From Limosilactobacillus coleohominis 101-4-CHN (GTDB lineage: Bacteria > Bacillota > Bacilli > Lactobacillales > Lactobacillaceae): a DNA stretch of 64,000 bases. A program made the position numbers and the translations under genes. The stretch spans positions 180,879 to 244,878 of the forward strand of contig NZ_GG698804.1 of assembly GCF_000161935.1 (NCBI RefSeq). The letters are read 5' to 3'. Below are positions 23,384 to 44,572 of the stretch, one piece after another; position 1 is the first letter of the stretch, and every line of letters begins with the position of its first letter. The notes under the pieces are model-generated. The model made no database searches and was not told where the DNA came from. It saw nothing but the letters and a program-made list of their open reading frames with translations.

Positions 23384-23478
23384 ATCAACTTAGAGCACAA
23401 AACACATCAAACTTAGTGCTGCTTCCTTCCGGATCTGACACGGTTCGTAAGCGCGTTCTTGCTCTAAGGCCTTACGGC
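23384..23478 (-). ncRNA. ffs: Signal recognition particle RNA, small bacterial type
   Basis: The minus strand contains the hallmark domain IV core GTCAGATCCGGAAGGAAGCAG with the GGAA tetraloop and the asymmetric loop bound by Ffh. It is closed by complementary ends CTTAGAGC and GCTCTAAG. A TATAAT at 23491-23486 sets the start near 23478. The location between tadA and dnaX is the usual one. Ends are estimates from pairing. The roughly 95-base size is the short form without an Alu domain. Confidence 0.95.
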
Positions 23479-42781: not shown

Positions 42782-42932
42782 GAAATTACACCTCCTATAT
42801 TAAATTTGGTACGGATTTAAAAAAATCCCTATGACCGGCAGACATAGAGAAGGAACATTTCATTTCTTCCTCGGCAGGTATGATTGAGGCTTGCGCCACC
42901 TGAGTCTTAGGCAGAGTCATATTTATAACCAC
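42782..42932 (-). promoter_or_regulatory. Ribosomal protein L10 leader with attenuator
   Basis: The roughly 150-base untranslated leader is where L10(L12) binds to control its own operon. On the minus strand the distal hairpin TCTCTATG / CATAGGGA (42850-42826) is followed by TTTTTTT, forming a transcription attenuator. The L10-binding region with GACTCTGCCTAAGACTCAGG lies upstream. Assignment is by position and features, not by model search. Confidence 0.75.
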
Positions 42933-42992: not shown

Positions 42993-43021
42993 TTGCGTTA
43001 GATTTTTTCTAATGGTATTCT
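42993..43021 (+). promoter_or_regulatory. steT leader promoter
   Basis: TTGCGT (42993-42998) and TATTCT (43016-43021) with exactly 17 bases between. The transcript should begin near 43028, about 25 bases before the leader peptide ATG. Confidence 0.7.
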
Positions 43022-43052
43022 AATGTCAATCAAAATTTTGGAGGGGACGCAA

Positions 43053-43127
43053 ATGTTACAACTGAATTTAACTCATTTTAATTTATCCTCTTCCTCAACC
43101 TCATCATCTCTGATTGTGGTTGGGTAA
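43053..43127 (+). CDS. Serine/threonine-rich leader peptide (24 aa) of the steT attenuator
   Basis: This short ORF has a very strong SD (GGAGGGG) seven bases before its ATG. Codons 12-19 (43086-43109) read Ser-Ser-Ser-Ser-Thr-Ser-Ser-Ser, all serines using TCN codons. The peptide begins MLQLNLTHFN and ends LIVVG. Its mRNA can form a pause hairpin or leave an antiterminator partner free, depending on ribosome position, and a terminator follows before steT. It is too small to be a stable enzyme and is best explained as a control peptide that measures charged tRNA-Ser (and perhaps tRNA-Thr). Confidence 0.85.
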   Translation: MLQLNLTHFNLSSSSTSSSLIVVG

Positions 43128-43214
43128 TTTTGGTGTTCATTATTTTTAATAACAATTAATGGGCCGTCTCAATCACTTGCAGTTTTGCGAATGGTGCTTG
43201 AGACGGCTTTTATT
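43094..43214 (+). promoter_or_regulatory. Three-state attenuator RNA of steT
   Basis: Region 1 CTCAACC (43094-43100, inside the Ser/Thr codons) can pair with region 2 GGTTGGG (43118-43124). Region 2 extended, GTGGTTGGG (43116-43124), can instead pair nine bases with region 3 CTCAATCAC (43168-43176), with two G-U pairs. Region 3 is also part of the left arm of the terminator. A ribosome stalled in the serine run would mask region 1 and favour 2:3, giving read-through. Confidence 0.75.
43163..43214 (+). terminator. Attenuator terminator before steT
   Basis: GCCGTCTCAA and TTGAGACGGC form a perfect 10-bp stem with a 25-base top, followed by TTTTATT. It lies between the leader peptide and the steT RBS, so steT can only be expressed by read-through. 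Confidence 0.92.
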
Positions 43215-43240
43215 GTGTCATAGAAATGGAGGAATTAGTT

Positions 43241-44572
43241 ATGCAGGACAAACAACCAACTGAAGACTTGAAACGGTCGCTCGGCTTTGGCTCGGCAATT
43301 TCAATCGTGATTGGAACTATCATTGGATCAGGAATCTTCTTTAAACAGGGCTCGGTATTAGATAGTGCTGGTAGTTCCACAATGGCCATCCTGGCTTGGG
43401 TCTTTGGTGGGGTTATTACCCTGACCGGTGGTCTTACTGTCGCTGAAATTGGTGCTCAGATGCCATATACTGGTGGTCTTTACGTTTATATTGAAAATAT
43501 TTATGGTCGAATCCTTGGCTTTTTGGCCGGGTGGATGCAAATTATTGTCTACGGTCCAGCGATCATTGCCTCGGTAGCAGGTTTTATGAGCATTCTGATG
43601 GCTAATTTCTTTGGGTTAGGTAATGAATGGCGAATTCCATTAGCAATTATCACCGTTGGCCTCATCGGACTAATGAACCTTTTAGAAAATAAGGTCGGTG
43701 CCCTTTTCTCTGTCATCACCACTTTAGGAAAATTGATTCCGATTGCCGCAATTATCATTTTTGGTCTCTTCTGGGGGCACCAAGATGCTTTTGGACAAAC
43801 TGTTCGTGAAATTCATCAAAGTTCCGGTGGTTTTGGGGTTGCTGTGCTCGCCACCCTCTTCGGGTACGACGGCTGGATTCTGATTGCCAACCTTGGTGGC
43901 GAAATGAAGAATCCACAAAAATTACTCCCGAAAGCAATCATTTTCGGAATCACTGCTGTTTTGATTATCTACACCTTAATTACCGTAGGAATTCTCCGTT
44001 TTCTTCCCGTTGCGACAATTCATCGCCTTGGTGAAAACACTACTGCCTATCTAGCAACCAAGGCCTTTGGACAAATTGGTGGTAAACTGCTGTCAGCTGG
44101 AATTATCATTTCGATGATGGGAACGTTAAACGGTAAAATGTTAACTTTCCCCCGCATTGTATATGCCATGGCTAAACGACAAGATATCCCATTCTCGAAA
44201 TTCTTAGCCTACCTTAGTCCGAAGGGTAAATCGCCAGTTACGGCCACCATTTTTATCGTCGTCCTGGCCTTCATTATGATGCTCTTCTTTGATCCAGATC
44301 ACTTATCAGATCTCTGTGTATTTACAGTATACTGTTTCTACATGTTGGCTTTCTTTGGCGTCTTTATTCTACGGAAACGTAATAAGTTTGCTAAGCGGCC
44401 TTTTTCGACTCCGTTCTATCCAATTGTCCCGATCATTGCGATTGCTGGTGGAATTTTTGTCCTCGTCAGTGAAATTTTTAACGACCCCGCGGGAGTTATT
44501 CTCTTTATCGGAATCGTTATCGTCGGTCTGCCAATTCTTTATTTTGTTAAAAAGTACTACCAAAAAGGGTGA
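43241..44572 (+). CDS. steT: APC-family serine/threonine exchange transporter, SteT-like
   Basis: The 443 residues have about twelve transmembrane segments and the APC/LAT features IVIGTIIGSGIFF (helix 1) and GGLTVAEIGAQMPYTGG. The overall sequence resembles the Bacillus SteT serine/threonine exchanger; substrate is therefore by homology and is supported by the Ser/Thr-rich leader peptide. I use the ATG at 43241, eight bases after GGAGG. The in-frame ATG at 43226 precedes that SD. A strong terminator follows. Its location between rplJL and rplKA is unusual. Confidence 0.88.
   Translation: MQDKQPTEDLKRSLGFGSAISIVIGTIIGSGIFFKQGSVLDSAGSSTMAILAWVFGGVITLTGGLTVAEIGAQMPYTGGLYVYIENIYGRILGFLAGWMQIIVYGPAIIASVAGFMSILMANFFGLGNEWRIPLAIITVGLIGLMNLLENKVGALFSVITTLGKLIPIAAIIIFGLFWGHQDAFGQTVREIHQSSGGFGVAVLATLFGYDGWILIANLGGEMKNPQKLLPKAIIFGITAVLIIYTLITVGILRFLPVATIHRLGENTTAYLATKAFGQIGGKLLSAGIIISMMGTLNGKMLTFPRIVYAMAKRQDIPFSKFLAYLSPKGKSPVTATIFIVVLAFIMMLFFDPDHLSDLCVFTVYCFYMLAFFGVFILRKRNKFAKRPFSTPFYPIVPIIAIAGGIFVLVSEIFNDPAGVILFIGIVIVGLPILYFVKKYYQKG

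Follow-up and report, generated by a model that had tools for sequence, protein, structure and literature searches.

The leader-peptide attenuators of the enterobacterial trp, his, thr, leu and ilv operons are the textbook model for ribosome-mediated control of transcription termination. A short leader contains a run of codons for one amino acid, alternative pairings (1:2, 2:3 and 3:4) compete within the leader RNA ahead of an intrinsic terminator, and a ribosome terminating at the leader stop codon covers region 2. The putative switch described here has all of these features, but it would be serine-specific, lies before a transporter gene and occurs in Lactobacillaceae; the comparison is with the textbook models rather than with their sequences. 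Among Rfam attenuators, the passages of one paper used here name the His, Leu, Thr and Trp types only, with Ile/Val and Phe described elsewhere and serine not among them (PMC3766115).

Attenuation of this kind has also been proposed within the Firmicutes. His leader peptides were predicted in bacilli before hisS*/hisZ, and the relevant passages present regular leader peptides in Firmicutes as a noticeable finding (PMC2965389); that case is likewise predicted Firmicutes attenuation, but with His codons and before tRNA-synthetase paralogues. The ilv-leu operon of S. aureus has a Leu-rich attenuator peptide with genetic support, and the excerpted text also mentions leader-peptide predictions in Lactococcus and Streptococcus (PMC5794164). 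The S. aureus system is again leader-peptide attenuation in a member of the Firmicutes, but it uses Leu/Ile codons and controls a biosynthetic operon. Serine shortage is read as slow decoding of UCN codons in the case of SinR in B. subtilis, where ribosome density during serine starvation rises at UCN but not at AGC/AGU, according to the sections consulted (PMC3862929); unlike the switch proposed here, this effect acts within a coding gene and involves no attenuator.

A gene of the orthologous kind, steT/ykbA, is described as having a Thr T-box before it in the B. cereus group alone (PMC2494555). Amino-acid supply is sensed and transcription is antiterminated in that system too, but the tRNA binds the RNA directly and no ORF is involved. 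At E <= 0.001, T-box matches number 24 in the genome studied here, seven of them above the cut-off. A T-box was nonetheless rejected for the present locus: RF00230 had no match at 42993-43240 at the gathering threshold, nor in ten related loci, and the genome-wide search at E <= 0.001 gave no match there. At gathering scores no Rfam family matched at the leader, either in this locus or in the ten related ones. Our search of the open-access literature, in the portions retrieved, found no serine leader-peptide attenuator, and no leader-peptide attenuator in lactobacilli; subscription papers were mostly outside its scope, so this absence is weak evidence. The kind of attenuator is known; its serine specificity, its lineage and the exchange of Ser for Thr codons on one scaffold appear to be new.

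The window is a stretch of 64,000 nucleotides from Limosilactobacillus coleohominis 101-4-CHN, and all parts of the switch lie on its plus strand. A 24-codon ORF at 43053-43127, translated as MLQLNLTHFNLSSSSTSSSLIVVG and homologous to ORFs in relatives, lies 5' of the transporter gene and is preceded by a Shine-Dalgarno sequence, GGAGGGG, at 43040-43046. Its codons 12-19 (43086-43109), the proposed sensing codons, read SSSSTSSS; among the 57 ORFs of 12-40 codons with a strong Shine-Dalgarno sequence in the window, no other has at least six Ser/Thr in any eight residues. Region 1 (CTCAACC, 43094-43100) lies within the Ser codons and pairs with GGTTGGG at 43118-43124, giving 7 bp with one G-U. 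Region 2 (GTGGTTGGG, 43116-43124) abuts the leader stop codon on its 5' side, and all nine of its bases pair with region 3 (CTCAATCAC, 43168-43176), giving 9 bp with two G-U. Region 3 overlaps the 5' arm of an intrinsic terminator at 43163-43214 (arms 43163-43172 and 43198-43207, a perfect 10-bp helix; U tract 43208-43214, TTTTATT), and the antiterminator 2:3 and the terminator 3:4 are mutually exclusive because they share these bases. The Shine-Dalgarno sequence of the transporter gene, GGAGGA, follows at 43228-43233; the listed ORF start at 43226 is unlikely because it overlaps this sequence, and 43241 was taken as the start.

A first-pass annotation of this DNA had claimed the ORF with its strong Shine-Dalgarno sequence and Ser-rich run, the two leader pairings, the 10-bp terminator and the transporter ribosome-binding site, and reading and translating the sequence found each of them as described. 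Its promoter fared less evenly. The candidate at 42993-43021 consists of TTGCGT (42993-42998, three of six consensus positions), a 17-nt spacer and an extended -10, TGG-TATTCT (43016-43021), in which TATTCT has four of six consensus positions and the extended -10 TG is present. A consensus scan of the window for promoters and terminators picked up neither the promoter nor the terminator of the switch. The weak boxes are nevertheless readable, TATTCTAAT-like -10 text recurs 5' of the leader in many relatives, and the stretch is probably the promoter of the leader. Judged from the window alone, pairing 1:2 does not stand out, since 22 of 100 shuffles were equally strong (4 of 100 for 2:3); the strength of the case comes from comparison with relatives.

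Taken with the folding model, the comparison of leaders makes it highly probable that a serine-specific, ribosome-mediated leader-peptide transcription attenuator controls the SteT-like transporter. With ample Ser-tRNA, a ribosome translating the leader would reach its stop codon and cover region 2, leaving region 3 free to form the terminator (OFF). With no ribosome on the leader, 1:2 would form and the terminator with it, again OFF. When Ser-tRNA is scarce, the ribosome would stall on uncharged tRNA-Ser within the Ser run and mask region 1, so that region 2 could pair with region 3 before the 3' arm of the terminator is made, allowing readthrough into the transporter gene (ON).

Folding was modelled on the assumptions that a ribosome covers -15 to +12 relative to the A-site codon and that the transcript starts at 43027. 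Pairing 1:2 had P=0.91-0.93 with no ribosome, and 2:3 had P=0.91-0.97 when the A-site codon was any of Ser 12-15 or Ser 17 and RNA polymerase stood at 43186. With the A site on the stop codon, 3:4 formed and 1:2 and 2:3 were both absent. The first-pass annotation had the stalled ribosome mask region 1 and so free region 2. In the model this stands for Ser 12-15 and 17, but a ribosome stalled at Ser 18 or 19 itself covers region 2 and 2:3 drops to zero. Once the transcript reaches 43215, equilibrium favours the terminator whatever the modelled state (P=0.89), and if the model holds the ON state can arise only kinetically. Kinetic antitermination is also a feature of known attenuators.

The first-pass annotation had proposed aligning the leader across related lactobacilli, and this comparison found the Ser run and the pairings conserved. 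Close orthologues of the transporter (at least 73% identity) are present in 48 of the 50 Limosilactobacillus genomes searched, two being truncated at a contig end, and the remaining two genomes have only relatives of 38-39% identity. A Ser-run leader ORF with a Shine-Dalgarno sequence precedes the gene in 35 of the 47 readable upstream regions, the 48th orthologue (G014), which begins inside its contig, falling outside the 47. No intact Ser leader was found in the other 12 of the 47 (L013, L014, L033, L036-L043 and L047), and the leader therefore seems dispensable in some lineages. In a sample of the family, such a leader precedes all nine Lactobacillus orthologues. No leader was found in the other 78 of 87 upstream regions by a Ser/Thr-run filter, which would miss leaders with fewer such codons; these regions belong almost entirely to other genera, one being an additional copy from a Lactobacillus genome. 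The leader stands in 39 of the 78 upstream regions of a named set (L189, with too little upstream DNA, is excluded); among those of its Lactobacillus-titled records that reach 73% identity and are absent from the genus sample the count is 10 of 12, L166 and L168 being without it, although L168 has a weak Ser/Thr-containing ORF.

Over all sets there are 52 distinct Ser-run leaders, and a hairpin and T run precede the gene in every one (the hairpin called for L058 overran, and L058 is omitted from the reference list). An SD-like motif precedes the leader ORF of every relative counted, as the filter demands. The peptide outside the run drifts and varies from 17 to 27 residues in length, whereas the run is kept, with nine Ser in L048 and four in L190.

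Several individual genomes show other states of the locus. L014 (genome G036, near 1300) is a decayed Ser leader with a one-base frameshift and an altered promoter region, its RNA elements retained. In genome G034 the stop codon of the preceding gene is fused to the ATG at both the steT-like (L013) and the thrP-like (L285) locus; since both intergenic stretches are absent, we suspect an assembly lacking them. L039, L041-L043 and L047, one of them from L. pontis, have no steT-like Ser leader, and the same five genomes keep a Thr leader before thrP (L291, L293, L301, L303 and L296). L162 comes from a Bacteroides-titled MAG record with a Lactobacillus-type transporter (78%) and a Ser leader, and its contig is probably mis-binned.

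The pairings had been expected to co-vary, and 1:2 proved to carry compensatory changes while 2:3 is re-formed in divergent leaders. Pairing 1:2 is found in the 44 of 52 leaders that have a common anchor (CTCAxxx in region 1, yyyyGRG in region 2), with seven standard pairs in 40 and one mismatch in four; the eight leaders without the anchor are absent from the pair table. Its three variable positions alternate A-U/G-C/U-A, C-G/U-A/G-C and C-G/U-A. Covariation was counted in alignment A2, which holds 37 of the 52 Ser leaders, chosen by hand for diversity. There 99.2% of the 1:2 cells are paired, against 28-42% after sliding by one to three columns. Changes on both sides occur in 28 cells; the shuffled mean is 7.4, and none of 500 shuffles reached 28. 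Counting instead the pairs that changed on both sides is not decisive (3 against 2.3 shuffled, 226 of 500 reaching 3). RNAalifold, given no structure, recovered the 1:2 helix unaided. Alignment A3, in which 15 Ser leaders stand with 15 of the Thr leaders described below, again hand-chosen for diversity, has 24 cells of 1:2 changed on both sides against 6.6 shuffled (0 of 500 as high); the count of pairs changed on both sides, 5 against 3.1 (24 of 500), is here too not decisive.

The register of 2:3 depends on the clade: most Limosilactobacillus leaders in A2 pair GCUGAGUGAUU with AAUCAUUUGGC, and the clade of the window pairs GUGGUUGRG with a CUCAAYCAC-like partner. This pairing was therefore tested by exchanging partners among 29 representatives. 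Own partners gave -20.4 kcal/mol and swapped partners -16.0 for 2:3, and the corresponding values for 1:2 were -15.2 and -10.8; in neither case was any of 10,000 permutations as strong. Against dinucleotide shuffles the mean z was -2.0 for 1:2 and -2.8 for 2:3, and the leaders equalled by no more than 5 of 100 shuffles numbered 29 of 52 for 1:2 and 46 of 52 for 2:3; many single 1:2 pairings, the window's included, are unremarkable by this measure.

What does the run itself conserve? In 44 leader ORFs, a tally that includes near-identical leaders, the Ser codons are TCC 98, TCT 90, TCA 66, AGT 19 and AGC 14. The mixture of TCN and AGY (254 + 33) indicates that serine, and not one DNA word, is conserved. 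The TCN share is 254 of 287 in the leaders, compared with 533 of 855 in window ORFs of at least 200 codons, a mechanical set in which overlapping ORFs were kept. The run may contain an odd residue, which is Thr, Ala, Val or Ile, or may contain none. Its codon (ACC/ACT, GCC, GTC or ATC, or AGY/TCT where it is Ser) is the site at which region 1 covaries with region 2, and codon 16 of the window (ACC) supplies these covarying bases. Since the odd codon sits at the covarying site, the residue would serve the RNA, and Thr 16 is probably the pairing codon of region 1 rather than a sensing codon. This refines the first-pass annotation, which placed region 1 within the Ser/Thr codons.

The switch is not confined to SteT-like genes: judging from the sequences, a Thr-coded version stands before a ThrP-like permease. 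A covariance model built from Ser leaders only (R1) matched second loci in many Limosilactobacillus genomes. All 24 of those read have a Ser/Thr-rich leader ORF on the shared scaffold, for example MQIYNKSIIHYLTSTSTTTTITVVE; 22 stand before a different, ThrP-like permease and two (L272 and L273) before a SteT-like transporter. The permease, scanned in one member of the genus, has NCBIfam ThrP as its best match (558 bits, below the cut-off of 850) and is 23% identical to the window's transporter. A Ser/Thr-rich leader precedes 39 of the 42 ThrP-like orthologues in Limosilactobacillus; the three others are L285 (in the suspect G034), L312 (decayed) and L316 (none). L312, in genome G006, is a Thr leader remnant with region 1, region 2 and terminator-like text and no ATG. 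The ThrP-like leaders of the genus are L252-L269, L274, L275, L276, L281-L284, L286-L311 and L313-L315. That of the present genome (L276, MLYSNVNQSTATSTNQLI, G000:C12) has equal numbers of Ser and Thr and an E value of 9.3e-6 with the combined model, R2.

In 396 genomes of the family, R2 matched 48 genomes of seven genera at E <= 0.001. The 25 matches listed outside Limosilactobacillus and Lactobacillus all carry such leaders; of 19 among these, 16 precede ThrP-like permeases (L375 assigned through its near-identity to L374) and three precede SteT-like transporters with mixed codons. The Thr form thereby extends to five more genera (Pediococcus, or g5, Ligilactobacillus, or g22, and g8, g13 and g18), where the leaders are L270, L271, L326-L328, L357, L359-L364, L366, L367 and L369-L375. 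The SteT-like transporters of genus g18 have mixed Ser/Thr leaders (L272, L273, L358, L365 and L368), such as MTNLKNMQINNSTSSDSTVLPSS, which are possible intermediates between the Thr and Ser forms. A hairpin before a T run is present in the Thr leaders, less cleanly delimited than in the Ser leaders; the automatic 2:3 windows are loose there, with several printed pairings lying off the stretch, and are given no significance. An order-wide search with R2 returned 19 matches, among them two false positives: L329, which is T-box-like and stands before a trpE-like gene, and L330, in which no leader is seen.

The codon content of the leader tracks the gene that follows. With a filter symmetric for the two amino acids, applied to 217 SteT-like upstream regions (in overlapping sets) and 63 ThrP-like regions, Ser outnumbers Thr in 53 of 57 distinct SteT-like leaders and Thr outnumbers Ser in 56 of 58 distinct ThrP-like leaders. 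The SteT-like exceptions are L044 and L045, with more Thr, and two ties, L272 and L047, of which the L047 match is a long ORF and probably due to chance; the ThrP-like ties come from this genome and the one closest to it. Another filter, which requires three Ser in a row and so leans towards its own result (Ser over Thr in 50 of 52 SteT-like leaders), is superseded by the symmetric one.

Considering that SteT exchanges serine and threonine, the leader might sense both amino acids jointly, with the Thr codons as co-sensors. The window's run does have one Thr, the L044 and L045 leaders of the genus are richer in it (TSSSTTTTS and TSSSTTTS), and the five SteT-like leaders of g18 mix the two residues. 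In most SteT-like leaders, however, the single non-Ser codon follows its region 2 partner, which accounts equally for Thr, Ala, Val and Ile, and the predominance of Ser in 53 of 57 such leaders also speaks against joint sensing; we consider it unlikely, though worth keeping in mind. A further possibility is that the element works as RNA only, with translation playing no part and the Ser run simply reflecting the pyrimidine richness of region 1. The core of region 1, TCCTCA, is indeed nearly invariant, and a good part of the Ser codons sits in the paired stretch. It is difficult to reconcile this idea with a run that exceeds region 1 on both sides and mixes TCN with AGY, or with a shared scaffold that has ACN codons before another gene. 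It also follows from the folding model that the switch needs a ribosome, since without one 1:2 forms and the terminator wins. We reject the RNA-only account as extremely improbable.

The remaining two alternatives take the ORF to be translated and look to its product. If it encoded an arrest peptide after the manner of ermC or TnaC, a drug or metabolite would cause the nascent Ser-rich chain to stall its ribosome, and a short ORF with a strong Shine-Dalgarno sequence and a conserved peptide motif would fit that expectation. The residues flanking the run are poorly conserved across clades, however, and codon identity is the conserved feature, with Thr taking the place of Ser before the other gene, so that this proposal too is rejected as very improbable, if by a hair less so than the RNA-only account. 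Conservation of the ORF and its Shine-Dalgarno sequence could also mean that the ORF, co-transcribed with the transporter gene, encodes a small protein with a function of its own. But it is mainly the run that is conserved, in peptides whose length varies over the range given above, and a terminator hairpin lies between the two ORFs in 52 of 52 cases; a small protein is dismissed as firmly as the RNA-only element.

The serine attenuator remains the preferred reading, and we lean, with less assurance than for the locus itself, towards a broader one. The leaders may belong to a reprogrammable attenuator family of Lactobacillaceae, built on a scaffold CCTCAxx...yyTGAG...terminator and switched by codon replacement between Thr (before ThrP-like genes, the wider form) and Ser (before SteT-like genes). 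A residue within the run would keep the RNA pairing, the family would replace T-boxes in a T-box-rich organism, and its Ser form would be the first serine-specific leader-peptide attenuator. Serine would then be added to the repertoire of leader peptides, and classical attenuators would coexist with numerous T-boxes in one genome. A scaffold that occurs naturally in both a Ser and a Thr version would offer a ready test of how attenuator specificity changes. The same reading predicts when gut lactobacilli, probably unable to make serine, turn on serine and threonine uptake, and the leaders could act as natural reporters for starvation of either amino acid.

The proposed target is an APC-family amino-acid transporter of 443 aa (43241-44572; PF13520, E 1.7e-57). 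Its best solved sequences are 9h76 (E 2.4e-90) and 6f2g (E 2.5e-90), both annotated as putative amino acid/polyamine transport protein; we take 6f2g to be BasC, an Ala-Ser-Cys exchanger. An NCBIfam scan of the transporter reached no cut-off. It is 44% identical to a Peribacillus homologue, for which we know of no characterisation, and 99% and 93% identical to records of Candidatus L. excrementigallinarum and L. coleohominis. On similarity we call it SteT-like, and serine would be its imported substrate. A search for serC gave no match in this genome and was positive in 11 of 14 control genomes; for serA nothing exceeded the curated cut-off, the best of six weaker matches reaching 208 of 454 bits. 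With no match to serC and none to serA over the cut-off, the organism probably needs to import serine.

On its minus strand the window also has a ribosomal protein L10 leader (RF00557, 66.5 bits) at 42811-42929, immediately divergent from the switch, and a small bacterial SRP RNA (RF00169) at 23384-23470.
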